From Caldanaerobius polysaccharolyticus DSM 13641 (lineage in GTDB: Bacteria > Bacillota > Thermoanaerobacteria > Thermoanaerobacterales > Caldanaerobiaceae): a stretch of DNA of 64,000 nucleotides. The stretch spans positions 522,545-586,544 of the forward strand of contig NZ_KE386494.1 of NCBI RefSeq assembly GCF_000427425.1, read 5' to 3'. Both the position numbers and the translations under genes were made by a program. The notes beneath the pieces were generated by a model. The model saw only the letters and a list, made by a program, of their open reading frames with translations. It was not told the DNA's origin and did no database searches. Below are positions 29,614-44,070 of the stretch, one piece after another. Numbering within the stretch: position 1 is the first letter of the stretch; each line of letters starts with the position of its first letter.

Positions 29614-30033
29614 CTATTTTTTATATGCAATCTTCCCACTAATTACTGTCATATCAACAGACAAATCATTATTTAAAACAACAATGTCAGCATCCTTGCC
29701 TGTGCTTATACTGCCTTTTCTGTCATCTATGCCAATTGCCCTCGCAGGATTAAGAGTAGCCATTTTTATAGCTTCTGAAAGGGGTATTCCAAGAGTCGTT
29801 ATATTTGCCACTGCTTTATCAAGAGTAAGAGTACTTCCGGCTAAAGAACCGTTCTCTATTCTCGCTACGCCTTTTTCTACGATAACTTTTTGTCCACCAA
29901 ATACATACTTACCATCTCCAAGACCGCAAGCTAGCATCCCGTCTGAAATTAATATAATTTTTTCTGTACCTTTTATCTTTATTAAGATTTTTACTGACGC
30001 TGGATGTGAGTGTATAAAATCACATATTAGTTC
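29614..30033 (-). pseudogene. nagA: C-terminal part of frameshifted nagA
   Basis: Reading backwards from 30033, this frame continues the NagA protein as ELICDFIHSHP, then KIILISDGMLACGLGDG, GGQKVIVEKGVARIENGSLAG and the ending KDADIVVLNNDLSV. These are the expected C-terminal parts of N-acetylglucosamine-6-phosphate deacetylase, including the histidine of the ICDxIH motif and the catalytic Asp of the ISD motif. The first ATG in this frame is at 29937, well inside the domain, so this part cannot be an independent active enzyme. It joins the upstream part only through a one-base frame change near 30034-30040. Confidence 0.85.
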
Positions 30034-30767
30034 ACTATATATTTTCTATCGTCCAGAAACACCTCACCTAAGGCACCGGGTTCCCTGTGTTGAAAACCTT
30101 TCATGCCGTTATATGTATGAACGGCAAGTGAAGCTCCATGGTCAACGGCGTTTTTCATCTCTTCATAAGTAGCATTTGTATGCCCTAATGATATTTTTAT
30201 ACTCTTCTGGGTTACATATTTTACAAAGCATCCATCTATATCTTTTTCGGGAGCCAATGCTACTACTTTTATGCTATTATTTGACGCCTCAATGAACTTT
30301 TCCATAATGCTAATATCTGGTTCTAATATATACCTCTCGTCCTGAGCTCCTTTGTGTTCTTTGCTTATAAATGGCCCTTCGACATATGCGCCTATTATTT
30401 GCGCTCCATCTGTCCCTTTCTTCATTGTATCGCTTACGTTTTTAAGGGCATTATGAATATACTGTACTCCCATCGTCATAGTTGTAGCACAAAATGAAGT
30501 TACACCATGCTCTGCAAGATGAACTGAAATACTGTTTAATGCATCATAGCTTGCATCCATCACATCATATCCAACGCCACCGTGTACGTGTATGTCAATA
30601 AAACCAGGTACTATTTTTTTGCCAGTTACATCAAATACTTCAGCATCTTCTTTTATTATACCTTTCCCTATTTCTGATATCTTGCCGTCTGAAATTAATA
30701 AATCGCAATCATAAAGTATTCCGTCATTTGTATATATTTCACCATGCCTGAATAAAATGTTTTTCAT
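30027..30767 (-). pseudogene. nagA: N-terminal part of frameshifted nagA (N-acetylglucosamine-6-phosphate deacetylase)
   Basis: NagA deacetylates GlcNAc-6-phosphate to glucosamine-6-phosphate, the step before NagB. This part has PGFIDIHVHGGVGYDVMDA (metal ligands), GAYVEGPFI (the catalytic-site Glu), ISLGHTNA and AVHTYNGMKGFQHREPG, then LDDRKYIVN and a stop at 30027. The rest of the protein is intact in the -1 frame. Deletion of one base after KYI explains the break; rejoined, the protein would be about 384 residues, the normal length. No slippery heptamer is present. It could be a sequencing error, a recent mutation, or less likely a programmed shift. Start ATG has AGGTGG 7 bases upstream. 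Confidence 0.85.
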
Positions 30768-30831: not shown

Positions 30832-31800
30832 CTACTGGCTTAATATAAGGGCAGCTGCTCCTAACACCCCAGCATCCTTGCCAAGCTTCGCTCTTACAAT
30901 TTCTACTACCTCTGCATTGGCTTTTAAAGCCCTTTTGCCTATTTCCTTCATTATCCCTGCGTACATCATATCGAGGTCGTTGGACATGCCTCCACCTATT
31001 ATAATGCGCCGGGGATTAAAACTGTTTATGATATTGGATATGCCAACCCCTAAAAGCTCTGCTTCTCTGTTCACCATCTCCAGCGCGTATTCGTCCCCTT
31101 TTCGCGCAGCGTCAAATACCACCTTCGCGTCTACTTTCTCTATGTCCCCTCCCACCATATCCAGTATTATGGACTCTCTCCTGCCGCTTTTAAGCCCCTC
31201 TACAACACGCCTGGTAAAGGCAGTACCAGAAGCCAAAGCCTCCCAACAGCCATAATTGCCGCAACCGCACAGAGGGCCATTCATATCAATGGTGGTGTGA
31301 CCTAACTCTGCACCGTTGGAATTCTCTCCGTGAAATAGCTTGCCATCTATAAAGGCGCCTCCTCCTATACCCGTGCTCACCGTTATGTACACAAAGTTTT
31401 TGATGCCCTTGCCAGCTCCAAAAATCCCTTCCCCAACAGCAGCCGCATTGGCGTCATTGTCTACTTTTATAGGTACTGGAAATTCTTCCTGTATCCTGTC
31501 CTTCAATGGAACATCTACCCAACCAGGCAGGTTAGAAGTAAACTTGATAACCCCTTTTTCAGCGTCCAGCGGACCAGGCGACCCTACTCCTATTCCCTCC
31601 AGTTCGCCTAAGGAAACCCCTGCTTTATCCATAACAGTGTGTATGGTATCCTTTATCTTTTGTATTACCGCATCAGGCCCTTTATATGCTTCAGTAGGGA
31701 CGTTTTCCCTCACCAGTATCTCTCCTACTTTATTTATGAGAACAGTGCTCAACTTGGTACCTCCCAGGTCCACTCCTACTATGTACTCTTTGTCAGACAT
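30832..31800 (-). CDS. ROK-family sugar kinase (glucokinase or N-acetylglucosamine kinase)
   Basis: A 322-residue cytoplasmic kinase with phosphate motif VGVDLGGTKLST, the substrate-site DNDANAAAVGEG, TVSTGIGGG, the EVGH-type ELGHTTID and the ROK zinc motif CGCGNYGCWEALASG. The family includes glucokinase, GlcNAc kinase and others. Position next to nagA, a GH20 hexosaminidase and nagB favours GlcNAc or a related sugar, but the sequence alone does not decide. The ATG at 31800 (MSDKEYIVG) has GGCGGTGAT upstream; the longer frame to 31848 reaches into a hairpin and has no site. Confidence 0.9.
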   Translation of the reverse strand: MSDKEYIVGVDLGGTKLSTVLINKVGEILVRENVPTEAYKGPDAVIQKIKDTIHTVMDKAGVSLGELEGIGVGSPGPLDAEKGVIKFTSNLPGWVDVPLKDRIQEEFPVPIKVDNDANAAAVGEGIFGAGKGIKNFVYITVSTGIGGGAFIDGKLFHGENSNGAELGHTTIDMNGPLCGCGNYGCWEALASGTAFTRRVVEGLKSGRRESIILDMVGGDIEKVDAKVVFDAARKGDEYALEMVNREAELLGVGISNIINSFNPRRIIIGGGMSNDLDMMYAGIMKEIGKRALKANAEVVEIVRAKLGKDAGVLGAAALILSQ

Positions 31801-31849
31801 AATATCACCGCCTATCTTTCGAATTTTTTGCATACATGCCACGCACACA

Positions 31850-31876
31850 ATGGACTGGCTGGTAGAGCCAGTCCAT
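31850..31876. other. Perfect 11 bp stem-loop between GH20 and ROK kinase genes
   Basis: ATGGACTGGCT and AGCCAGTCCAT pair without mismatch around a 5-base loop, directly after the GH20 stop codon and before the kinase. No T-tract follows on either strand. A messenger-stabilising or processing hairpin in the polycistronic message is a better reading than a terminator. Confidence 0.6.
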
Positions 31877-31879
31877 CAA

Positions 31880-33517
31880 TTATCTTATACTTAAATCCAC
31901 TCTTCCTGCAGCTGACCAGAATTTACCCTCAACTATTTCAAGTCCCTCAGACTTTCTTTCGGCTAGCCAAAGCCTGGCATATGCGTTTGCGAGTTCTAAA
32001 AGATCAGAGGTTGTTATATTACCCTCAAGCCTTTTCAGACATACGCGTAACACCTGTCTTATAAACCACAGATCCTCAGGAAGATTTACTTTAGACGACT
32101 CTTGAGTAACTTCTTCAAAAACTTGTTTTATATTAGTTTTATCAGATTCGCTCATGCGGTAATACCAATAATCTGCAAAAAGCAAGTGCTTTATGTTATT
32201 GGTTATCTCCGCTCTGCCAAAGGCTTTTCGTACGCGCAGCACATTTCCATCCTCACCAGATAGGCTGATCCATTTCTGCTCCCACTGACCGCTGCCCTCT
32301 GCCAACTCCATGCCAGCTAAAAGAAGCGGCTTTAAGTATGAAAATAGGCATTCCTCACCATCGTCACCCCAGGCTGTTATAAAAAAGCCAGGCAGTTTCT
32401 TATGAACTGCTGCACCTATAAAGTTCTTTAAATTTTCAATGGCGCAGTGGAAATCAGGGTAGAATCTGCCCCAGTTTGAAAGCCCAGGACATACTATCTG
32501 TTTATCTTGGCGCTGACTTCCGAAGCTTTCTATTTTATTTAAAAAGAACTCTTTTGTTTGCGCACTGTAGTCCCAGTTGGCTATAATAACGCGATCCCAT
32601 ATATCGCTCTTTAGTATACTTTCCCATATTTTTCTCTCACTTGATCTAAGGTACATGCCGGTTACCATATCACCCCATACTATTGGGATTTTACCGTATT
32701 TTTCAACCATCTCAATCATATTGCGATAATGATATTCATACAGCATTGGACCTTGGAATGTCCATGTTTTATCAAGGCTTTTTCCCCTGCCCAGCGCCCA
32801 CGTTTCATCCCCGCCTATATGTATGTATTTTGACGGGAAAAATTCCAACACTTCTTCAAGGAGTTCATATGCAAACCCTCTCGCCTCATTATCTGATAGG
32901 TCTAAGCATCCCTCGCGGGGTAAATGCCATTCGCTGTATTTTGAAAACTCTGGCAACATCAGTATCTGTTCCATATGGCCTGCAAGCTCAACTGAGGGCA
33001 ATACCTCTATGCCAAGTTTACGACCGTGTTCTATTATCTCTTTAAGTTCTTCTTGCAAAAGCCTTCCTCTCGTACTTCCTATTTGAGGGTACTTTTGCCA
33101 TGAGAACAGGTCTTCAAGATAGATGGCAAAATAATTGTATTTAAGCAAGAAAAGCCAGTTTAGTATATCTTTAAAAGTTGAAACACTGGGAACACCGCCA
33201 CGTGCTATATCGAGATGATATCCTCTAAAAGGAAAACAAAAATCCTCTTCTATGACGACTTCTGGCAGAGCATCTTTTCTCTGCATTAAAAGCTGTATTA
33301 TTGTAGCATAAGCGATGTTTTGATCACCCCATATTTTTATCTTGCCATCTTCTATCGATATGCCACATCCTTTTTTGTCTATTTTTTCAATTGTCCAACA
33401 ACCTTTGGGTATAGAAAAGGTTTGTGCCAAAAAACAGGGCATGTTTGAAAAGCCGTCAAAAGCAAACCATTGCCCCGTAAAACGTATAGATTTGGGTTGA
33501 GGTACTATGTTGACCAC
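31880..33517 (-). CDS. Cytoplasmic GH20-family beta-N-acetylhexosaminidase
   Basis: A 545-residue glycoside hydrolase. Residues 90-380 form a GH20 TIM barrel: FRGYHLDIARGG, the active-site pair Asp237-Glu238 in YIHIGGDETW, and IVWGDMV. GH20 enzymes remove terminal GlcNAc or GalNAc by substrate-assisted catalysis. A degenerate N-terminal alpha/beta domain (residues 1-88) precedes it and a helical C-terminal region of about 130 residues follows, which I do not recognise. There is no signal peptide, so it acts on imported oligosaccharides. The GTG start has GGAGGAG 6-7 bases upstream. It lies between the DraG-like gene and the sugar kinase. Confidence 0.88.
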   Translation of the reverse strand: MVNIVPQPKSIRFTGQWFAFDGFSNMPCFLAQTFSIPKGCWTIEKIDKKGCGISIEDGKIKIWGDQNIAYATIIQLLMQRKDALPEVVIEEDFCFPFRGYHLDIARGGVPSVSTFKDILNWLFLLKYNYFAIYLEDLFSWQKYPQIGSTRGRLLQEELKEIIEHGRKLGIEVLPSVELAGHMEQILMLPEFSKYSEWHLPREGCLDLSDNEARGFAYELLEEVLEFFPSKYIHIGGDETWALGRGKSLDKTWTFQGPMLYEYHYRNMIEMVEKYGKIPIVWGDMVTGMYLRSSERKIWESILKSDIWDRVIIANWDYSAQTKEFFLNKIESFGSQRQDKQIVCPGLSNWGRFYPDFHCAIENLKNFIGAAVHKKLPGFFITAWGDDGEECLFSYLKPLLLAGMELAEGSGQWEQKWISLSGEDGNVLRVRKAFGRAEITNNIKHLLFADYWYYRMSESDKTNIKQVFEEVTQESSKVNLPEDLWFIRQVLRVCLKRLEGNITTSDLLELANAYARLWLAERKSEGLEIVEGKFWSAAGRVDLSIR

Positions 33518-33566
33518 AAATTTCTCCTCCCTTTAACTTTTTTGATTTTATTGGTACTGCTTTAAT

Positions 33567-35705
33567 TCAATCATCCAACTTTCCTATTTTGAAATTCTTG
33601 AAGTGGCAGTGACCTCCTTTTAACAAAGATACTCCTATCTGGCCTCTTAAGTAAGGATTATTTTTATCATCATATTCAATCAATACTTTGCCTTTACTCA
33701 TAGCTTTTATGTTGGCACCTTTTACTTCAATCCTGAACGTATATTCATTGTTATATTCCCACTTAAATGGAATTTCTTTAAGTGGGCGATACCCATTTTC
33801 ATTTTTGTAAAGTACAAGCTTGTCATTATCCGCAAGGCCTACAGCATACGAACGCATAGCCCCTTGTACACGGAAGTTAATATTGTGGTACTTCCCCACC
33901 TTTGGAATCACTGTGGCTTCAAAACTGTAATCCTTCCAATCATAGCTCCCTGTATAAGCCTCTCCAAAATCATTTGTGCTTCCACTTAACTCCCCATTTT
34001 CCAATGTCCATATTCCTTTAAGATAAGTGAACTGGCTTACCTCTTTGTGTAAACCATGCCATACTTCCATCCTTTCTTTATTAAATTCTATCGTATAGTC
34101 AGGCTGTCCTGAAAAATCAAAATCATCAACATATGCAACAAATGTAGAATTCCAGCCGTGTTTCAATATAAACTTTACTCCAGCTTCTTCAATACATGCG
34201 CCTTCAAGGTGGGGAATCTCAAATGAAAGTTCTATCCATCTATTTGCTATTAGTTCAACTTTCTCCGATTCAATAAACTTTTCGTTATTGCCATCTTTAA
34301 CATACAAACATGCAAAAGCCTGCGCGTCACTATCCTCCGGAAGCATTACACTGGCACTTATCCTTTGTCCTGGATATAGTATTGGTGAAAAACTTGGATC
34401 ATAGCGGCTGTCATGGAAGTCACTAGGCCTATAGTAAGTTTTATGAAACACCCTTAATTCATTGCCGTATGCTACAGGTTTTGCTATCACTTTGAGAGCA
34501 CCTTTACCACTGTGAGAGAATTGAGTAGTATGAACCAAGTCATACTCAAGATTGCTCTCACTCTCCCACGCCAAACGAAAGCCATGGGTTGAGCCCGGAA
34601 ATTCAAAATGGAACTTAGCTGCCCTTCCCTCCAAAATATCCTTCCACTCTTCTGGTGGCTCTTCTCCTGCTATTTTATATGCAAGGTTTGCAATATATGA
34701 TGCGCACCATGGAATATCAAGTATGTTTAAACTTCCTATGACACTCGAACACACCAAAAAATCGTTGATAGGTTTTCTCCATTTTTTATAGTCTATACCT
34801 TCAAGCCCGCATAAAACTCCCATAATAGTGCCAACATTGCCAACATTGCAGTCGGTATCCCAACCGCACATGTTGCAGATGTTAATAGTTTTTGAGAAAT
34901 CTCCTTCCCCATACAACATGGATAATATCATTACAGCGGAATTAGGAATTATATGGCACGTGCCGGGATAGCGGTCATATCCATAATTAGTTTTTATAAA
35001 CTTAAAGCATTCTCTCCAATTTTCAGGATGCTCATTATAAAACTTTATTACATCACGAGCCATCCTAGCATATTCGCAGTCCTTTGGTATAACCGACAAT
35101 CCCTTCTCTATAACCTTTTTTATATCCTTCTCTGTAAATGCAGCGCTGATGCAAGCAGCTACAAACATACCGCCGTAGATACCGTTTCCTCCATGGGAAA
35201 CGCTGGCCGCTTTTTCTGCATATTCAGCCGCAAGTTTGGGGTTATCAGGTATTACCAACCCCCACGTATCAATAAAGATCTGGCCGCCAATTTGCTCAGC
35301 CACAGCTGGCCCATTCTGTTCTATGGAACCCGAAAGCGGAGCCATTATACCGCTCCTTAAATTAAGGTATGCGGTGTGCTCTGTTGACTTACCGTATCCA
35401 CCCCACCAGAAAAAACCATGCTCATAGGGCACATAATTAAGCCAGGTTAGACCTATATGCTCGGCTGTGATGTCAGAAGTGTATGTATAGTCTTCCAGTG
35501 CCCGCAAAAAAAACAGTGGCCCATTAATGTCATCATCAGCTGCAAATTCCTTGTAGTTCACAAGATAGTCAGTAATTTCTCCATAAATTTTTCCTATCTT
35601 TTCATATGTCCATCCTTCAATCGGGGCCCCGTGACGAACTCCTATTATTTTACCCAGTAAGCCTGCATAGACTCTATTTATATAATCTTTTGGAATTTTC
35701 CCCAT
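33567..35705 (-). CDS. ADP-ribosylglycohydrolase (DraG-fold) protein with C-terminal beta-sandwich domains
   Basis: A 712-residue two-part protein. Residues 1-340 are an ADP-ribosylglycohydrolase fold: GLLGKIIGVRHGAPIEG, three aspartates 57-59 (AADDDING) and GWDTDCNVGNVGTIMG (Asp283, Asp285). These are the positions of the two metal sites in DraG enzymes, so activity is likely. Residues 345-520 look like a carbohydrate-binding-type beta sandwich. Residues 530-712 resemble a concanavalin-like or DUF1080-type domain (GIWTLENGELSG ... FEATVIPKVG). No signal peptide. The ATG at 35705 has AAGGAGAG upstream; an ATG at 35738 does not. Context between GH20 and GH172 genes suggests a sugar substrate rather than ADP-ribosylated protein; this is inference. 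Confidence 0.8.
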   Translation of the reverse strand: MGKIPKDYINRVYAGLLGKIIGVRHGAPIEGWTYEKIGKIYGEITDYLVNYKEFAADDDINGPLFFLRALEDYTYTSDITAEHIGLTWLNYVPYEHGFFWWGGYGKSTEHTAYLNLRSGIMAPLSGSIEQNGPAVAEQIGGQIFIDTWGLVIPDNPKLAAEYAEKAASVSHGGNGIYGGMFVAACISAAFTEKDIKKVIEKGLSVIPKDCEYARMARDVIKFYNEHPENWRECFKFIKTNYGYDRYPGTCHIIPNSAVMILSMLYGEGDFSKTINICNMCGWDTDCNVGNVGTIMGVLCGLEGIDYKKWRKPINDFLVCSSVIGSLNILDIPWCASYIANLAYKIAGEEPPEEWKDILEGRAAKFHFEFPGSTHGFRLAWESESNLEYDLVHTTQFSHSGKGALKVIAKPVAYGNELRVFHKTYYRPSDFHDSRYDPSFSPILYPGQRISASVMLPEDSDAQAFACLYVKDGNNEKFIESEKVELIANRWIELSFEIPHLEGACIEEAGVKFILKHGWNSTFVAYVDDFDFSGQPDYTIEFNKERMEVWHGLHKEVSQFTYLKGIWTLENGELSGSTNDFGEAYTGSYDWKDYSFEATVIPKVGKYHNINFRVQGAMRSYAVGLADNDKLVLYKNENGYRPLKEIPFKWEYNNEYTFRIEVKGANIKAMSKGKVLIEYDDKNNPYLRGQIGVSLLKGGHCHFKNFKIGKLDD

Positions 35706-35772
35706 TTTTCTTACTCTCCTTTTTCTATTGCCTTTCATTAAGAATGGAGATAGTTCTGCAAAAAAATAATGA

Positions 35773-36855
35773 TTATATAACCTCTAATACGTCTGCATCA
35801 GGAAATTTAGGGAATGGGCTATGAGGTTCACTCTGATACCAGTAGCCAACTGATGCAATATCATCCTGTAAAGGAAGGTATCGTCCGCCAGATCTCCAAC
35901 CTAAAGCCTGTATGGTTACTTTCAAATCTTTTTCAAAGCGTATTGGATCCATTATATGCCAGCGGTACATTCCGAAACGCTGTTGGCTTTTATATAAGCC
36001 GTCGGGTTTTATTACTTGAGAAAGACCTGAGTACAATGATGAGAATTTACCGTATTGTCCTTGAGGAAATTCAAAATTCCATGCACCTCCGAAATAGTCT
36101 TCAGTTCCAGTGCCGCATATGGTAGGAAAATCTTTATCCCCATCTAAGTAAAATTTTATCTCGCCTTCACCCCACCATCCGTTGTTGTTTACGCCCCATG
36201 CGATATATGTACCAACGTAATGCCCTTGTCCTTTTACATCGTCAAGTATTATATGGACCTCCTTATATTTAAGGGGATTATCACGACGCCATTGGGCATG
36301 AAAATACCCCACATTATCAGGTATATCCGTCAACGTATAGTCAATTTGATAGTACAGCACTGCAGGCTTATCGCTGAGATTTTCTATGGTGATCTTCGCT
36401 GATTTTTTAAAAGGCATAGTCCAATAAGAATTCATTCCACCAGCTGGATTTACAGCGATGGCTATAGAGTTTACATTGCTTAGCTCGCACCATCCATTGC
36501 AAAAAAAATCGCCAAAGGGAGTTTCCACTGATGGATGCTCTTCTCCATCCCAGTACATCCTTAGTACAAGAGATCGCCATTTATCTGGAAAACATGTCAT
36601 CCATATGTGCTGGATAACGCCAGGTCCTTCAATATCTGCTAATGTAAAAACGCTTTTTTCTGGAATATTTATTGATGGAGAAACCTTCCAACCCACTCCC
36701 AGCTCCCTGGCGCATTCTTTTCCTGTGCCTTCTGTTGCCATTCCACCTTTACCTTTTTCACCAGTAAAGTTTTCTGGGCTTATCGATCGAGATTTCGCGT
36801 TAGATAATAGAGGTAAATTACCAAGGTTTAATCCGAAACCATTAAAAATCATCAT
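35773..36855 (-). CDS. DUF2961 / glycoside hydrolase family 172 protein
   Basis: A 360-residue protein with the DUF2961 signature. DIEGPGVIQHIWMT, GEGEIKFYLDGD (Glu230 and Glu232) and PTICGTGTEDYFGGAW (Glu252) are the conserved glutamate blocks. Members of this family were placed in GH172, which includes difructose-dianhydride-forming fructofuranosidases and D-arabinofuranosidases. The exact substrate here cannot be read from sequence. No signal peptide. Start ATG with AGGAGGG before it. It lies 67 bases upstream of the DraG-like gene, and a ROK kinase remnant lies just upstream of it. Confidence 0.85.
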   Translation of the reverse strand: MMIFNGFGLNLGNLPLLSNAKSRSISPENFTGEKGKGGMATEGTGKECARELGVGWKVSPSINIPEKSVFTLADIEGPGVIQHIWMTCFPDKWRSLVLRMYWDGEEHPSVETPFGDFFCNGWCELSNVNSIAIAVNPAGGMNSYWTMPFKKSAKITIENLSDKPAVLYYQIDYTLTDIPDNVGYFHAQWRRDNPLKYKEVHIILDDVKGQGHYVGTYIAWGVNNNGWWGEGEIKFYLDGDKDFPTICGTGTEDYFGGAWNFEFPQGQYGKFSSLYSGLSQVIKPDGLYKSQQRFGMYRWHIMDPIRFEKDLKVTIQALGWRSGGRYLPLQDDIASVGYWYQSEPHSPFPKFPDADVLEVI

Positions 36856-36902
36856 TTATCCCTCCTGATCATCGTTTCCATAAATATTTTAACACCACTT
36901 TT

Positions 36903-36995
36903 TTAAAAACGATTGTTTTTATAGCCTCTACCTGAGCCGATCCAACGCTCTCCAATAGCAACAGCGTTAACGTCATTTATCAATATCGTTTTCTT
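36903..36995 (-). pseudogene. Remnant of a ROK-family sugar kinase gene
   Basis: In the gap between the GH172 and isomerase genes the minus strand translates without a stop as KKTILINDVNAVAIGERW followed by IGSGRGYKNNRF and TAA. This matches the ROK block seen twice elsewhere in this window (DNDANAAAVGEGIFGAGKGI in the kinase and [20 protein letters not shown] in the repressor). About 30 codons survive, without the ATP motif or the zinc motif. It starts 2 bases after the isomerase stop. It is a decayed relic or a deletion end point, not a functional gene. Confidence 0.75.
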
Positions 36996-36997
36996 AT

Positions 36998-37876
36998 TTA
37001 TTTGTTAATAACCGAATTCAAGTTTAATAAAGCATCAAGATGTCTAGATGTATCGAAAACCAAAAAATCAGGCATAATGCTGTACGGTGAAAGCTCTGCA
37101 GTTATATATCCGTCATACTTAACTTTGTACAGAGTTTTCATCACTTTTATCCAATCCACATCACCTTGAAAAATATTCTTGAACCCTTTAATATTCCCTA
37201 TTGAAGTATCAAAATCTTTAACATGCACTCTTATAATGTAATCTGAAAGAATCTCTATCCAATATTCTGGATAAGAAAATGCCATTACGTTGCCCACATC
37301 AAAATAAGATTTTACGTAAGGGCTCCCAATCTCCTCTATAAAATTTCTCATCTCTATAGGACTTAATAAAAACTTATTCCAGACATTCTCTATTCCTATA
37401 TACACTTTATTCTCTTCTGCTTTCACTCTTAATTCTTTTAAGGCCTTCAAAGACTTATTATATGCATCTTTATATGAAACAGTTTCATTGACAATACCCG
37501 GTACCACAAGTACTGCATCTGTTTCCAATAATACCGCAGTGTCAATCATTTTCTTAACTATATCAATTCCTTTTTGTCGTATCGCATTATCTTCACTTGT
37601 CAATGAATACACCCAGTGTAAGGACGTCGAGATACCAACTATTGATATCCCGACGTCTTTTGATATATTCAAGATTTCTTTTATTTCTTTCTCACTCGAC
37701 TCAATTGTTAATCCATAATTTTCACCTAATTTTAAATCGTCAATTACACTTTTGCTTTTATTAAATTCCGTCATATTAATCTCTATACCGTCATATCCAG
37801 CTATTTTTGCCTTTTTAATGCATTCTTCCAATGAATAATTTTGTGGAAAACACCAGGCATTAATCCCCTTTTTCAT
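36998..37876 (-). CDS. Sugar phosphate isomerase/epimerase-type TIM barrel (AP endonuclease 2 superfamily)
   Basis: A 292-residue xylose-isomerase-like TIM barrel. Metal-binding positions are recognisable: Glu in YIGIENVWNKF, Asp in SYFDVGNV, His in IRVHVKDFD and Glu in GYITAELSP. The family includes tagatose and psicose epimerases, inosose dehydratases and lyases acting on 3-keto sugars, so reaction type is open. Start ATG with AGGTGG upstream. It follows the second Gfo/Idh gene by 4 bases, so isomerase and dehydrogenases are co-translated and probably act on the same sugar. Confidence 0.85.
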   Translation of the reverse strand: MKKGINAWCFPQNYSLEECIKKAKIAGYDGIEINMTEFNKSKSVIDDLKLGENYGLTIESSEKEIKEILNISKDVGISIVGISTSLHWVYSLTSEDNAIRQKGIDIVKKMIDTAVLLETDAVLVVPGIVNETVSYKDAYNKSLKALKELRVKAEENKVYIGIENVWNKFLLSPIEMRNFIEEIGSPYVKSYFDVGNVMAFSYPEYWIEILSDYIIRVHVKDFDTSIGNIKGFKNIFQGDVDWIKVMKTLYKVKYDGYITAELSPYSIMPDFLVFDTSRHLDALLNLNSVINK

Positions 37877-37880
37877 ACTA

Positions 37881-38855
37881 TTACCACCTTACAACTTTAT
37901 TTTCTCTCGCTGATTCGTATGCCATCAAAGCAATCTTAAGGGCAAATAAACCGTCCTCACCTGTTACTGGAGAAGGTCTATCATTTTTAATGCAATCAAT
38001 AAAATCCTTCAACATTAGATAATTCATATCATCTCCCCAGTCCAAATACTGGCTATATTTAATATTATTGCTATATAGCATTCCATGTTGTGCAAATGCG
38101 TCTAAATTAATTGCTCCTTTCGTACCTATTATTTCCATAGTCACATCTCCCCATGTAGGAAAAGATTCAGGCCTCGACCATGAAGCATCAAGTGTCGCGT
38201 ATGTGCCATTTTCAAATTCCATTGATATGATTCCACTATCTTCAACAGGTATATCGTAAAACATGGTACCCATCTTGGCATAAACTTCTTTTATATCAGA
38301 ACGTAAAATCCAATGCATCAGGTCCGCAACGTGTACGGTATGGTCTATAATAGCGCCTCCTCCAGATAGATTTTTGTCGACAAACCACCCGCCGGGCATC
38401 TTACCATGATTTGTGGCATTTATAGCAATAATGTCTCCTATTATCCCACTATCAATAATCTCTTTTGCGCGTTTTACTGACGGTTCATATCTTACTGGAA
38501 ACGAAACCATCAATTTTACGCCATTTTTATTACATTCATCTATCATTTTTTCTGCATCACTAATGGTAGTTGCGATTGGTTTCTCTACAATAACATTTTT
38601 CTTAGCTTTAGCAGCATTTATCGTCATTTCGGCATGTTTTACATTTGCAGAACATATGATCACTGCATCTATGTCTTCATCTAACAGTTTTTTATAATCT
38701 TTATAATATTTAAGCCCATAATTTTGCGCAAAATTTTTACCTGCTAGCTCATTGCTTTCAGCAATCCCTGCAATTTCAACATTAGGAATGTTCTTTAAAG
38801 CAGATACATAACCATTAGCATGCATATGCTCACAGCCTAAAATACCTATCCTCAT
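37881..38855 (-). CDS. Gfo/Idh/MocA-family NAD(P)-dependent oxidoreductase (second)
   Basis: A 324-residue sugar dehydrogenase with an N-terminal Rossmann fold (IGILGCEHMHANG) and VEKPIATTISDAEKMI, containing the conserved EKP lysine of the family. The C-terminal alpha/beta domain has GGGAIIDHTVHVADLMHWIL with the catalytic-site Asp and His. The first glycine motif is altered (GCEHMH in place of GxGxxG), as in some members. Its ATG overlaps the previous stop as ATGA, with GAGGAGGTG just upstream. Substrate unknown; likely oxidises or reduces a cyclic sugar or ketose. Confidence 0.88.
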   Translation of the reverse strand: MRIGILGCEHMHANGYVSALKNIPNVEIAGIAESNELAGKNFAQNYGLKYYKDYKKLLDEDIDAVIICSANVKHAEMTINAAKAKKNVIVEKPIATTISDAEKMIDECNKNGVKLMVSFPVRYEPSVKRAKEIIDSGIIGDIIAINATNHGKMPGGWFVDKNLSGGGAIIDHTVHVADLMHWILRSDIKEVYAKMGTMFYDIPVEDSGIISMEFENGTYATLDASWSRPESFPTWGDVTMEIIGTKGAINLDAFAQHGMLYSNNIKYSQYLDWGDDMNYLMLKDFIDCIKNDRPSPVTGEDGLFALKIALMAYESARENKVVRW

Positions 38856-39871
38856 TTTAGCACCTCCTCAGGTTTAACTGGTCTATCCAACTTTATAGAT
38901 TTTATAGCAGCCAGCGCAATACCCAATGACTCTAATGCCTCATTCCCTGAAATAGGCGGTTCTTTTTTAAATTCAACTGCATTTAAAAATAGCCTTATTT
39001 CTCTTGTGTACGGATTAGAATCTGTATCGAGCGGGCTTTCTGGTACAGCTACACCACTTTTTTCACTCTTTATATTTGTTGTTCTAACATTAAGAGGTAC
39101 TGATTTAGAACTGTCATATTCAATAAGTCCCTCCGTACCTGCTATTTCAAGTTTAGTTACAAATGGAGTGTCCTCTGAACCTGACCAGTCCGCTACAAGA
39201 TGAGCTATAACGCCATTATAAAATTCTAAAATTACAAGGTCATATTCTGGATCTTTGTAATCTTTTCTTTTTAAAATATTACCTTTTGCATATACTTCTT
39301 TAACAGGTCCAAAGCACATTTTTAAAAAATCTATATCATGTATAAGCATATCCTGTATTGCCCCGCCGCTTTTTTCCGCAATGCCATACCATTCCCTCGT
39401 TACAGCTGGATTAGGTCCACCCCTATATGTCCTCACTATCTTAGGAAGACCGATAAGTCCTTTTTTTATTGTACCATACGCATTCTCATATTCCGGAAAA
39501 TACCTTAAGACATGTGCAACCATAAATGTGACTCCTGCGACGTTTGTGGCTTCTATCATCTTTCTCCCTTCTTCGATACTTAAAGCCATTGGCTTTTCAC
39601 ACAAAACATGCTTTTTTGCAGAAGCCGCTTTAAGCGTATAATCGCAATGTAAATAAGTCGGTACACATATATCCACAACATCTATATCAGGTCTTTCTAT
39701 TATTTTATCGCCATGATCATAATATTCGGCATTAAACATCGAAGCGAGCTCCTTGGCTCTCTCTGGTATTATGTCTGCAACCGCAACAACCTTTGCTTCA
39801 GGAATACTTTTATAGCACTTTGCATGTATAGTACCAATACCACCTGCTCCAATAATACCCACTTTAAGCAT
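38852..39871 (-). CDS. Gfo/Idh/MocA-family NAD(P)-dependent oxidoreductase (first)
   Basis: A 339-residue paralogue of the next gene, with the dinucleotide motif VGIIGAGGIGTIHAKCY, the CEKPMALSIEEGRKMI lysine motif, and GGAIQDMLIHDIDFLKM carrying Asp and His of the active site. The pair differ strongly in sequence, so they probably catalyse different steps, for instance oxidation of one sugar and reduction of another. Start ATG has AAAAGGAGG. It heads the five-gene run dehydrogenase-dehydrogenase-isomerase-GH172-DraG, 89 bases after nagB. Confidence 0.9.
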   Translation of the reverse strand: MLKVGIIGAGGIGTIHAKCYKSIPEAKVVAVADIIPERAKELASMFNAEYYDHGDKIIERPDIDVVDICVPTYLHCDYTLKAASAKKHVLCEKPMALSIEEGRKMIEATNVAGVTFMVAHVLRYFPEYENAYGTIKKGLIGLPKIVRTYRGGPNPAVTREWYGIAEKSGGAIQDMLIHDIDFLKMCFGPVKEVYAKGNILKRKDYKDPEYDLVILEFYNGVIAHLVADWSGSEDTPFVTKLEIAGTEGLIEYDSSKSVPLNVRTTNIKSEKSGVAVPESPLDTDSNPYTREIRLFLNAVEFKKEPPISGNEALESLGIALAAIKSIKLDRPVKPEEVLK

Positions 39872-39960
39872 ATAAGTTCCTCCTTTTAAATTAATTTTAT
39901 AGCTTTGTACAATAATATCCTGCCTTTCTTCCCAATAACATTTTATTATTCACTGCTATA

Positions 39961-40713
39961 CTAAAGGCTACAGCTTATTTCTTTTTCATCAATAAGACTC
40001 GCAGCTTTTCTGTCGATTACCAGAGTAACATCGGGGTGAAGGGCAAGGACTGTTGAAGGCACATTTGTAGTAAGGTATCCTTTTATAGTTTCTCTTATAG
40101 CCTTCGCCTTGTTCTGGCCGGATGCCAGCAGCATAATCTTTTTGGCCTTCATAATCGTGCCTACACCCATGGTTATAGCTTTTCTTGGCACCTCTTCAGC
40201 ACTATGAAAAAATCTCTTATTAGCCTCTATGGTCTCTTTAGCCAGCTGTACCACATGAGTTTTGGTATCTATATTGGTATCAGGCTCATTAAAACCTATA
40301 TGGCCATTTACTCCCAACCCTAATATTTGAAGGTCAATACCCCCTGATTCCCTTATGGCTTCTTCATATCTTTCACATTCTTTCTCCAAGTCCTCGGCGC
40401 ATCCATCAGGAATGTGAATATTCTCTGGCTTTATGTTTATATGGTCAAAAAAATTTTTGTGCATATAATAATGATAGCTTTGCTCATGGTCCGCAGGTAA
40501 ACCGATGTACTCATCAAGATTGAAGGATACCACATTTGAAAAATCGATAATACCTTTTTTATACATTTCAACAAGTTCGCCATACATGCCCAATGGCGTA
40601 CTGCCTGTAGCCAGTCCCAGTACCAGATCTGGCTTGTTTTTTATCTCCCACGCCACCATTTCCGCTGCTTTTCTACTCATGTCCTTGTAATCTTCAGTTA
40701 TAAATATCCTCAT
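39961..40713 (-). CDS. nagB: Glucosamine-6-phosphate deaminase
   Basis: Converts glucosamine-6-phosphate to fructose-6-phosphate and ammonia, linking amino sugars to glycolysis. The 250-residue protein has [26 protein letters not shown] with the catalytic Asp, and [15 protein letters not shown] with the Asp/His/Glu region. Length is close to the Bacillus enzymes, without the allosteric C-terminal part of the E. coli enzyme. Start ATG overlaps the stop of the NagC-type repressor, so regulator and enzyme are co-translated. Confidence 0.95.
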
Positions 40714-41906
40714 ATCAATACCCCTTTCAATACATCAGTAGATTCCAATACCCGCGCCACTCCGCCTATACACCCAGCATTGTTGCCCAACAAGGACTTT
40801 TCGATGGTGACATCAAAGGGTGCCAACCGATTCACAGACGCCATGATCTTATCCATTGCTTTGTCTCCGGCGTAATATAGATCGCCACCTAATATCACTT
40901 TTTTAGGATTTATAACAGCGATCAAATTCGCTATTCCCATAACCAGCAGTTCAATATATTCATCGATTACCTTCTGGCACAATTTATCGCCAAGCTCATA
41001 TCCCTCGAAAACCATATGCGGTTTAACCGCTGAACCAGTTTCGTTAATCGCTTTATGAAGATACGAATCACTATAGCTGGCCATCAACTTCAATGCATTT
41101 CGTACCATGGCATGATCGGCAGCCTGCAACTCAAAAGCGCCAAAATCATTAAGAGTGAAGCTCTCCTTAACTCCTTGTCCAAGTACCATATAACCGATCT
41201 CTCCAGCCGTATAACTGCTACCTCTATATAGTTTACCATCAATTATTATTCCACAGCCTATACCTCTGGCCACAGATAGATATATGAAGTTATCAATCCC
41301 TACGCCAGCGCCCTTCCACTTCTCTCCAAGTGCTGACAGTTTTACATCATTTTCAGGATAAACAGGTAGGCCTATTTTTTTCTCCAGTTCCTTTGATATC
41401 TTTACATTTTGCCATTTTAAAGCCGGTGAGTATACAACAGAGGCTTCTTCAATATTCACTATACCCGGAATGCCTATTCCTACCCCTAGCACTTTCCCTT
41501 GATCTCTTAATTTATCTACGATGTCAATCACATCCTTTATAACATCTTCACCGCTGTTTAACCTGCATATAGTGCTATTTAAAATATTGCCACCTAAATC
41601 AGACAACACCGCCCTTATGCTATAACCGCTGATATTTATACCTATAACTCTGGCTACATCCGGGTTAAAAACCAGGTTTATTGGCTTTCTACCACCATTA
41701 GATGAAGCCTCGCCTTTCCCCTCTTCTTTTACATAGCCAATTTTAAGCAGCTCATCTATAATTGATGAAACAGCAGATTTGCTCATGTTGAGTTCTTTAG
41801 CTATATCAGCCCTGGAAATAGATCCTTTACGAACTATCAAGCTTATAACATTAGACATGTTTATATTCTTCATCATCTGCGTAGATGCCTTTTTATAGAT
41901 TCCCAC
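40710..41906 (-). CDS. NagC/XylR-type ROK transcriptional repressor
   Basis: A 398-residue repressor with an N-terminal winged helix ([29 protein letters not shown]) and a ROK sugar-binding domain ([46 protein letters not shown]). The zinc motif CxCGxxGCxE of ROK proteins is missing: the region reads [17 protein letters not shown] without cysteines, a change seen in other XylR-type repressors. It probably senses GlcNAc-6-phosphate or a related sugar and controls its own operon with nagB. GTG start with GGGGG 7 bases upstream. Confidence 0.9.
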
Positions 41907-42011: not shown

Positions 42012-43037
42012 TTATTCATGTACATCTATCATGACTTTCATGGCGTGATCTTTTTGTTTTTCTATGTATTCGTAAGCCTTAAGGTAATCTCTAAAAGGAA
42101 AATGATTTGTAATAAGAAATTTAAGATTTACTTTTTTGTGCTGAATCATTTCAATGGCTTTTATATAATCTTCTTCCACATACATCAATGTCCCTATCAG
42201 CCTTAGCTCTCTATCCTGTACCAGCCCCAGATCTACCGTGACCTTTTGACCAAACACTCCTACTACAATGATGTCTGTCCCTTTGCGGGCACAACTTATC
42301 GCCTGCTCTACAGTAGCATTGACTCCCACACACTCCAGAATCAGATCGGCTTTGTCGGGTCCAAAATTTTCTGTTAGCGCCTCTTTAAGGTCCTTTTTAT
42401 CAGGGTTTACGCAAAAATCTATACCACATCTTTCAGCAATACCCAGGCGATAATCGCTCAGGTCCGTTATCATAACCTTTTCCGCTCCCATTCCCTTTGC
42501 CGCCTGAGCCACAAGATTTCCTATCGTGCCTGCCCCCAAGACCAACACTTTTTTCCCGATGACACCGTTGCTTCTTCTCAGCGCGTGCACAGCCACGGCC
42601 AAAGGTTCCACCATAGCTCCCTCATCGTAGCTTATGCCTTCAGGGAGCCTTAAAACCTTTTTAGAATCTACAGCAAAGTATTCAGAAGCCATACCAATGG
42701 TCTGAAAGCCCATTACTTTAAGCTCCTCACATATATTATACCTTCCATGAGTACATGGATAACAACTGCCACAGTACACCTGTGGTTGCACTGTAACCAT
42801 ATCTCCTGCCTTTAAATTCCTTACGTTAGAGCCAACCTTTACTATTTGCCCGGACACCTCGTGGCCCTGAACGACCGGATATCCTGTGTAGGGATGAGTG
42901 CCATGATAAACGTGGACATCTGAACCGCATATACCTATTCTCATTATCTTTATAAGTACATCATTGACCCCAATTTCCGGAATGGGAACATCCCGAAATT
43001 CTATTTTACCAGGAGAAGTCATAACCGCTTGAATCAT
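42012..43037 (-). CDS. Zinc-dependent medium-chain alcohol/polyol dehydrogenase (sorbitol or threonine dehydrogenase-like)
   Basis: A 341-residue MDR-family dehydrogenase. Catalytic zinc ligands are in GICGSDVHVYHG and VQGHEVSG; the structural zinc site is CGSC-x2-C-x7-C (YCGSCYPCTHGRYNIC). VLVLGAGTIGNLVAQAA is the nucleotide site. The substrate is probably a polyol or sugar alcohol. Start ATG with AGGATGG upstream. It directly follows a LacI-family gene in the same direction, which probably controls it. Confidence 0.9.
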   Translation of the reverse strand: MIQAVMTSPGKIEFRDVPIPEIGVNDVLIKIMRIGICGSDVHVYHGTHPYTGYPVVQGHEVSGQIVKVGSNVRNLKAGDMVTVQPQVYCGSCYPCTHGRYNICEELKVMGFQTIGMASEYFAVDSKKVLRLPEGISYDEGAMVEPLAVAVHALRRSNGVIGKKVLVLGAGTIGNLVAQAAKGMGAEKVMITDLSDYRLGIAERCGIDFCVNPDKKDLKEALTENFGPDKADLILECVGVNATVEQAISCARKGTDIIVVGVFGQKVTVDLGLVQDRELRLIGTLMYVEEDYIKAIEMIQHKKVNLKFLITNHFPFRDYLKAYEYIEKQKDHAMKVMIDVHE

Positions 43038-43053
43038 AAGTGACCATCCTTTC

Positions 43054-44070
43054 TTAAATAAGCCTTCGTACTCCGTTGCCTACAATCAACTGGGGTGTAT
43101 ATATTACCTCTCGATTTACAATAGACCTATCTTTTATCCTCTCCAAAAGCATCTCGCCAGCTTTCCTGCCTATTGTTCTGGCATTTAAAGTCACTATACT
43201 GGGCTGTACGTACATAAGCTCTACGTTATCTATATCGCCATAGGAGGCTATGGATACGTCTTCAGGGACCTTTATTTTATTTACCCTGAAATATTTCAAT
43301 GCACCCAGTGCCATGGCGTTATTCATAACTACCACTGCCGTCGGCGGATCAGTCAATTTCAGCAACTCTGCTGCCCCCTGATAACCGGATTCCATAGTAA
43401 AATCCCCATCGTACCTGTAAACGTAATCATCTCCCACTTCTATACCTGCTTGTAACATAGCCTTTTTAAATCCCTCAAAGCGTTCTTTACCCGTACTTAC
43501 GCTTAAATCTCCGTTTATCACAGCGATTTTCCTGTGTCCTGAAGATAACAGGTGTTCGGTTAAAGTATAAGCTCCCTCAAAATTATTGCTGTCAATAAAG
43601 TCCCCTCTAAAAGCACTGTCTTGCACCTTTCTGTTAACCAGAATTACGGGCAAATCATTGCTAAGTTTGGAAATAAAATCATCGTTTCTGCCTGTGGTAT
43701 TTAATATCAAGCCGTCAACCTTCCGGCTTATAAGCAATTTAAGGTACCTCAACTCTTTTTCTTTTTTATTGTCAGTGCTGCACACGATCATATTGTAATT
43801 TTCTTTATTTATAACGTCCTCTATCGCTTTTGTCATTGAGGTGAAATAATCATTAGAGATATCAGAAACAATAAAACCTATGGTAAAGGTCGTATCGTTT
43901 TTCAAACTCCTCGCTATTGAGTTAGGATAATAGTTTAGCTCTTTAATTGCTTTTAAAACCCTTTTCTCTATCTCCGGGCTTACGTAATAATTGTTATTTA
44001 TAACCCTGGATACAGTAGCAATAGAAACTCCTGCATGTTTAGCCACATCCTTTATTGTAACATTGCTCAC
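43054..44070 (-). CDS. LacI-family transcriptional regulator
   Basis: A 338-residue regulator with the N-terminal LacI helix-turn-helix and hinge (VTIKDVAKHAGVSIATVSRVI ... NSIARSLK) followed by a periplasmic-binding-protein-like sensor domain (TIGFIVSDISNDYFTSM). The GTG start has GGAGGG 8 bases upstream. It probably senses a sugar and regulates itself and the dehydrogenase 16 bases downstream. Its own promoter and a LacI-like half-palindromic site lie just upstream. Confidence 0.93.
   Translation of the reverse strand: MSNVTIKDVAKHAGVSIATVSRVINNNYYVSPEIEKRVLKAIKELNYYPNSIARSLKNDTTFTIGFIVSDISNDYFTSMTKAIEDVINKENYNMIVCSTDNKKEKELRYLKLLISRKVDGLILNTTGRNDDFISKLSNDLPVILVNRKVQDSAFRGDFIDSNNFEGAYTLTEHLLSSGHRKIAVINGDLSVSTGKERFEGFKKAMLQAGIEVGDDYVYRYDGDFTMESGYQGAAELLKLTDPPTAVVVMNNAMALGALKYFRVNKIKVPEDVSIASYGDIDNVELMYVQPSIVTLNARTIGRKAGEMLLERIKDRSIVNREVIYTPQLIVGNGVRRLI

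Follow-up and report, generated by a model that had tools for sequence, protein, structure and literature searches.

Gene content and layout of the locus

We analysed a 64,000-nucleotide stretch of the Caldanaerobius polysaccharolyticus DSM 13641 genome (contig NZ_KE386494.1, positions 522,545 to 586,544; hereafter the window), which carries on its minus strand a run of sugar enzyme genes within an N-acetylglucosamine (GlcNAc) operon. The genes are transcribed in the order NagC-type repressor, nagB, two Gfo/Idh dehydrogenases (Gfo1 and Gfo2), a xylose-isomerase-like TIM barrel, a glycoside hydrolase of family 172 (GH172), a DraG-like protein with the ADP-ribosylhydrolase (ARH) fold, GH20, ROK kinase and nagA. 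A first-pass annotation of the sequence had joined these genes into one pathway for an imported GlcNAc-containing glycoside. On balance, we interpret the locus as a lineage-specific composite catabolic operon, in which a GlcNAc core is combined with three independent modules. Its features are the following:

43054..44070, minus strand: LacI-family regulator, open reading frame assigned by eye from the sequence; probably starts the co-directional run
42012..43037, minus strand: zinc alcohol/polyol dehydrogenase, open reading frame assigned by eye; adjoins the cluster, membership uncertain
40710..41906, minus strand: NagC-type ROK repressor with winged helix-turn-helix (HTH) (Pfam ROK and HTH)
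39961..40713, minus strand: nagB, glucosamine-6-phosphate deaminase (TIGR00502 above cut-off)
38852..39871, minus strand: Gfo/Idh dehydrogenase 1 of the redox/epimerase triad (Pfam)
37881..38855, minus strand: Gfo/Idh dehydrogenase 2 of the triad (Pfam)
36998..37876, minus strand: xylose-isomerase-like TIM barrel of UlaE/ketose-3-epimerase type, third member of the triad (Pfam AP_endonuc_2)
35773..36855, minus strand: GH172 (DUF2961), predicted exo-alpha-D-arabinofuranosidase (Pfam; similarity to ExoMA1)
33567..35738, minus strand: ARH/DraG-fold protein, predicted ribosidase (Pfam ADP_ribosyl_GH)
31880..33517, minus strand: GH20 beta-N-acetylglucosaminidase of GcnA/GH20C type, cytoplasmic (Pfam; PDB matches)
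30832..31848, minus strand: ROK-family sugar kinase (Pfam ROK; TIGR00744)
29615..30767, minus strand: nagA, GlcNAc-6-phosphate deacetylase, frameshifted (two halves match TIGR00221)

The genes named in the first-pass annotation were recovered as open reading frames at the same place and on the same strand, and their families were confirmed by Pfam with 268 bits for ROK, 76 for GH20, 189 for ADP_ribosyl_GH, 337 for DUF2961/GH172 and 132 for AP_endonuc_2; the two Gfo/Idh proteins, Glucosamine_iso and the ROK protein with HTH were identified in the same way. The description of a tightly spaced, one-directional cluster holds for the common strand, for the 4-bp overlaps of nagC with nagB and of Gfo1 with Gfo2, and for short gaps such as the 4 bp between Gfo2 and the TIM barrel gene, but not for the two largest gaps (nagB-Gfo1, 89 bp; TIM-GH172, 142 bp), which both bound the triad and lie at module boundaries. 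As previously described, inspection by eye showed no signal peptide in the cluster proteins, and neither the open reading frames nor Pfam revealed a transporter between 29.2 and 44.1 kb. The same-strand run extends upstream of the genes first listed by the LacI-family regulator (44070..43054) and the zinc alcohol dehydrogenase (43037..42012). The best promoter-like element of the region (TTGACA-18-TATAGT, 44150-44121) lies before the LacI gene, although matches of this kind also arise by chance. A search for RNA families between 25 and 46 kb returned nothing except the tRNA. The GC content amounts to 32% for the TIM barrel gene, 36% for Gfo2, 38% for Gfo1, 40% for nagB, 41% for GH172 and 47% for the ROK kinase gene. 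We infer that the cluster is co-transcribed.

Independence of the modules

The same-genus comparison comprised one genome (G001, in 90 contigs), in which nagC-nagB, the Gfo-Gfo-TIM triad, GH172 and the DraG-type gene are found at four separate loci. Adjacent nagC and nagB (93 and 94% identical to the proteins of the window) lie beside fumarase-like genes; the triad, with its order kept (70, 73 and 68% for Gfo1, Gfo2 and TIM), lies beside genes for solute-binding proteins; GH172 (90%) stands alone; and the DraG-type gene (56%) is located between genes for a ribokinase-family kinase and an SGNH hydrolase (L134, 7607-11348). No match to GH20 was found in G001. An SBP_bac_5-like protein encoded beside the G001 triad has just a relative of 30-34% identity in the window genome, encoded far away.

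Relatives of the DraG-type protein were collected by a scan of genome contigs seeded with the protein's own motifs, and 79 loci are considered here among the matches listed. None of them contains GH172 or a TIM barrel of the cluster type. Co-occurrence of the full gene set, which had been suggested as a check of the single-pathway proposal, therefore fails, because the modules are unlinked in G001 and the DraG loci lack GH172 and TIM; on the same grounds, a conserved whole cluster was rejected. The set is real yet lineage-specific: its exact combination is found only at this locus, where three unrelated sets of sugar enzymes have been gathered into a GlcNAc operon, and it is a collection rather than a described or a conserved pathway.

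The history of the DraG gene can be followed one step further. The window genome keeps the RbsK-SGNH-HSP20-alcohol dehydrogenase locus (80, 85, 86 and 92% identical to G001), and no DraG gene is present between its kinase and SGNH genes (L250, 8735-10295; G000:C2, about 1028.7-1030.3 kb). The DraG gene of the window is the only PF03747 gene of this genome, and in a tree of 40 DraG sequences, taken without reading its branch supports, the protein pairs with that of the Clostridiales metagenome-assembled genome DTU092 and not with the G001 copy. Because of the DraG-less kinase-SGNH locus, the single PF03747 gene and this pairing, the DraG gene probably reached the nag locus by a separate acquisition.

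GlcNAc core

The flanking genes named in the first-pass annotation (nagA, ROK kinase, nagB and NagC-type repressor) are all present, but nagA is not intact. NagB exceeded its curated cut-off (TIGR00502, 327 versus 237 bits), and the ROK kinase that of the ROK glucokinase family (TIGR00744, 271 versus 260 bits). A single frameshift in a short A run near 30040, previously overlooked, splits nagA into two halves, which cover the NagA model TIGR00221 end to end (4-241 and 242-380). The genome has no other nagA, and the frameshift may reflect an error in sequencing or a recent mutation that left a fresh pseudogene. Together with nagB and the NagC-type regulator, the frameshifted nagA completes the gene content of a nag operon.

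GH20 scored above the Pfam cut-off and contains the adjacent catalytic pair D237-E238 within the motif HIGGDE. Its best solved relatives, which share the D-E pair, are the cytoplasmic beta-N-acetylglucosaminidases GcnA and GH20C (2epk, 5a6b), although the enzyme of the cluster is divergent and shorter (545 versus 627-649 residues). Cytoplasmic glycan use with GH20 acting on beta-GlcNAc, as originally suggested, is supported.

GH172 as a predicted exo-alpha-D-arabinofuranosidase

The fold of DUF2961 was found over most of the GH172 protein (337 versus a cut-off of 27 bits). Its closest solved relative is ExoMA1 (8IC8; E=2e-150, 504 bits, with a nearly full-length alignment), an exo-alpha-D-arabinofuranosidase that lacks a signal peptide, from Microbacterium arabinogalactanolyticum (PMC10509167). 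In ExoMA1, Asn253 blocks the hydroxymethyl group of fructofuranosides and favours alpha-D-arabinofuranoside over alpha-D-fructofuranoside (PMC10509167). The alignment places N260 of the window protein at this position, and the residue is invariant in 10 orthologues, as are E230, E232 and E252, the candidates for the catalytic glutamates, in the orthologues of the protein. Like ExoMA1, GH172 has no signal peptide. With ExoMA1 as closest relative and the specificity asparagine in common, it is predicted to be an exo-alpha-D-arabinofuranosidase, and the earlier assumption that it acts on a furanoside is supported.

These properties bear on the possibility that all enzymes of the locus degrade one glycan with terminal beta-GlcNAc, alpha-D-arabinofuranose and alpha-D-ribofuranose, for instance fragments of actinobacterial cell walls taken up by a distant ATP-binding cassette (ABC) importer. 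GH172 and the DraG fold have pentofuranosides in common as substrates, and among characterised GH172 enzymes the nearest one works in the cytoplasm and belongs to a D-arabinan cluster (PMC10509167). In contrast to the ExoMA1 system, no endo-arabinanase (GH183/DUF4185), transporter or D-arabinose isomerase or kinase is encoded among the open reading frames between 29.2 and 44.1 kb, and the GH172 orthologues (58-90% identical) are solitary or, in one family, located between GH4 and GH127 genes, which makes a common glycan unlikely. In that family (L130-L133), the GH172 orthologue lies beside GH4, and a GH127-type gene is present in L130 and apparently in L133.

The Gfo/Idh-Gfo/Idh-TIM triad

The predicted structure of the TIM barrel (pLDDT, the predicted local distance difference test, 91.7) matched best the L-xylulose-5-phosphate 3-epimerase UlaE (3cqj; template modelling (TM) scores of 0.83-0.87), and its nearest folds are ketose 3-epimerases. 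The metal ligands E163-D193-H218-E261 (strands beta5 to beta8), which correspond to the E-D-H-E residues of UlaE, are invariant in 20 sequences. In contrast to UlaE, with which it shares about 20% identity, the protein is partnered with Gfo/Idh dehydrogenases and not with ascorbate genes. It is thus predicted as a UlaE-like ketose 3-epimerase and belongs to a distinct subfamily, beyond which E values drop sharply from about 1e-57 to 1e-16 with the exception of one intermediate match. Gfo1 carries the motif EKP at 92-94, and its D174 and H178 are invariant in 8 sequences. At the N-terminus of Gfo2 (37881-38855, minus strand), GxxGCEHMH replaces the usual nucleotide motif GxGxxG; a similar GLDSSH is present in L137|11.

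For both dehydrogenases, 3ezy from Thermotoga maritima is the best solved relative, and the inositol 2-dehydrogenase model (TIGR04380) ranked first or second. The triad might accordingly interconvert cyclitols or keto sugars by inositol-type dehydrogenases and a TIM barrel of inosose-isomerase/ketose-epimerase type, without any relation to the adjacent glycosidases, as its separate position in G001 would allow. However, TIGR04380 yielded 194 and 173 bits versus a cut-off of 355, no curated dehydrogenase model was reached, the IolO and IolE models gave 20-56 bits versus cut-offs of 290-300, and no iolCDE genes lie nearby. We regard this alternative as improbable.

The pathway originally proposed is quite improbable. 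Spelled out as one dedicated route, it would have one Gfo/Idh enzyme oxidise a GlcNAc glycoside to its 3-keto form, the TIM barrel or a beta-sandwich domain cleave it, and the other Gfo/Idh enzyme carry out the reduction; it recalls the beta-eliminase pathway for O- and C-glycosides, which likewise combines Gfo/Idh enzymes with a metal-dependent TIM barrel in one cluster. One element of this proposal recurs: a Gfo/Idh gene occurs within two genes of the TIM barrel gene on the same strand at 15 of 21 loci, sometimes with amino-sugar genes. The fold matches of the TIM barrel also include a 2-hydroxy-3-keto-glucal hydratase (8ro4). In O- and C-glycoside eliminases, however, a histidine that follows the beta5 ligand by two positions (His134 in AtOGE, His143 in PuCGE) is essential (PMC10628242), whereas this position is Val165 here, within an invariant ENVWN. 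An assignment of the TIM barrel as 3-keto-glycoside eliminase was rejected for this replacement. Moreover, both Gfo/Idh proteins remained far under the cut-offs of the 3-dehydrogenase models, and the PF06439 domain of the ARH-fold protein lies under its cut-off (see below), which leaves the 3-keto route weakened. With the modules unlinked in G001 and neither GH172 nor this TIM barrel present at the 79 DraG loci, a shared pathway of oxidation and hydrolysis is unsupported.

ROK genes are present at 7 of the 21 loci. TIM and Gfo/Idh genes occur with GH3, a BadF-type kinase and ROK in L183 and with a PIG-L deacetylase in L191. In L225 (10010-19849, G013:C3), genes for an ABC importer, a zinc dehydrogenase, a creatininase, Gfo/Idh, TIM and GH20 run in one direction, with the distant TIM gene (26%) and Gfo/Idh directly upstream of a GH20 gene whose product is 56% identical to that of the window. 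In L227 (9202-13083, G001:C9), NagB-like (31%), TIM-like, Gfo/Idh and NagA-like (37%) genes are adjacent. Because such genes are present in these four loci, there is a real hint that TIM and Gfo/Idh units are linked to amino sugars. A further run, L137 (5857-17016, G009:C59), comprises a ROK kinase, TIM (46%), Gfo/Idh, a different DraG-fold protein, a flavin adenine dinucleotide-dependent oxidoreductase, DUF4127 and an M20-type hydrolase.

The ARH-fold protein

The DraG-type protein consists of a catalytic domain (residues ~19-370), a beta-sandwich domain (~385-543) and a CBM66-like domain (~550-719; CBM, carbohydrate-binding module). Its AlphaFold2 model (pLDDT 92.5) displays the all-helical ARH fold, with Foldseek matches to 1t5j (MJ1187), 6g1q (ARH3) and 2woc (TM scores to target of 0.72-0.73 for 1t5j and 6g1q). 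Residues E41, D68-D70, D294 and D296 are invariant in 40 sequences of the family. These carboxylates correspond to the glutamate flap and the metal aspartates of ARH enzymes (PMC7050489), and E41, D69, D70, D294 and D296 account for the binuclear metal site. In contrast to DraG, ARH3 and MJ1187 (PF03747), the window protein has two additional beta-sandwich domains, two of its metal-ligand positions are apparently changed, and its family is often encoded in sugar-import and ribokinase operons.

The C-terminal domain resembles CBM66 of Bacillus subtilis (4b1m, 4azz; rmsd 1.9 Å to 4b1m, TM to target 0.83). With 17-20% identity, it is attached to a cytoplasmic ARH-fold domain and not to a secreted GH32 enzyme; CBM66 appears in PMC10992016 as the fructoside-binding module of a GH32 beta-fructosidase. 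The DUF1080-type domain (PF06439, 3-keto-disaccharide hydrolase) mentioned in the first-pass annotation reached 26.0 bits versus a cut-off of 26.8, and was discarded as evidence of 3-keto chemistry, as the predicted structure points to CBM66.

The proteins encoded at the 79 loci share the 700-residue layout of the window protein, to which they are 46-74% identical, and come from genera including Paenibacillus, Neobacillus, Blautia, Anaerocolumna, Acutalibacter, Caldicoprobacter and Treponema. Of their operons (same strand, gaps <300 bp), 32 contain CUT1-type ABC permeases, 28 contain ribokinase-family (PfkB) genes and 21 contain both. Seven of the neighbouring kinases were scored: five exceeded the ribokinase cut-off of TIGR02152, and that of G001 lies just under it (294.7 versus 299.65 bits). 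Among 82 further operon neighbours of DraG genes, nothing recurred beyond 4 sulfatases, 3 Gfo/Idh proteins and more importer parts. The earlier suggestion that the DraG fold is used on a sugar-linked bond gains support from relatives in sugar ABC-importer and ribokinase operons. A plain hydrolase of protein-bound ADP-ribose, placed in a sugar operon by chance, is a very improbable reading, since, despite the fold and most metal ligands of ARH3 and DraG, the protein carries two fused domains of carbohydrate-binding type, one a close match to CBM66, operons with sugar importer and ribokinase recur across many genera, and four of the sugar operons (L037, L052, L053 and L055) each include a second DraG-type gene.

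Judged from its gene neighbours and active site, the protein is probably a ribose-releasing enzyme for imported ribosides. The ARH enzymes known so far attack C1 of the ADP-ribosyl unit, which makes an alpha-ribofuranoside the first guess for its substrate. We tentatively propose that proteins with the ARH fold and the CBM66-like domain form a family of ribofuranosidases, cytoplasmic and not described before, across Bacillota, in which an ARH enzyme was recruited to nutrition in ABC-importer/ribokinase operons for a ribose-containing compound. This widespread and apparently undescribed enzyme is the newest part of the operon; nothing relevant on glycosidases or ribosidases with the ARH fold encoded in sugar operons was found in the literature collection searched.

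Proposed function of the composite operon

Short glycans are assumed to be imported by a distant ABC system. GH20 would then free GlcNAc, and the ROK kinase, NagA and NagB, which together with GH20 and the NagC-type repressor constitute the core, would convert it to fructose 6-phosphate as expected for their families, with the integrity of NagA in doubt. GH172, in line with its strong homology, would remove alpha-D-arabinofuranose from imported oligosaccharides. The ARH-fold enzyme, with its two beta-sandwich domains, one of the fructofuranoside-binding CBM66 type, would use a two-metal centre to hydrolyse an alpha-D-ribofuranoside, and the freed ribose could plausibly pass to a ribokinase encoded elsewhere; a true ribokinase is present in the window genome (305 versus 299.65 bits). 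The triad might oxidise, epimerise and re-reduce a freed sugar or cyclitol. All of these substrates, and imported short glycans as their source, are putative.

Several observations weigh against this interpretation. The genus is represented by a single genome for comparison, no ribokinase is encoded within the window cluster, and 51 of the 79 DraG operons lack one. In a hand alignment, the metal-ligand threonines Thr76 and Thr317 of human ARH3 correspond to Asp68 and Cys297, both invariant in the subfamily. Because two ARH metal-ligand positions thus appear changed, the substrate may differ from ribose.

ADP-ribosylhydrolases are known for erasing a mark from proteins and nucleic acids. If our proposal is true, the ARH fold also serves as a nutrient glycosidase, with a large branch in sugar-import operons with ribokinase; many annotations as 'ADP-ribosylglycohydrolase' would need correction, and a ribose-containing nutrient of soil and gut, so far unrecognised, would be indicated. 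The locus illustrates that a nag operon may gather unrelated furanosidases and advises caution against reading each cluster as one pathway; the part deserving further attention is the ARH-fold/CBM66 protein family.

The sugar operons L037, L052, L053 and L055 (for example L055, 12272-14213) each contain two different DraG-fold genes and two genes for PfkB-family kinases, one such order being kinase, solute-binding protein, permease, permease, DraG, kinase and DraG2. The second kinase of L055, one of the seven scored, is only distantly related to ribokinase.

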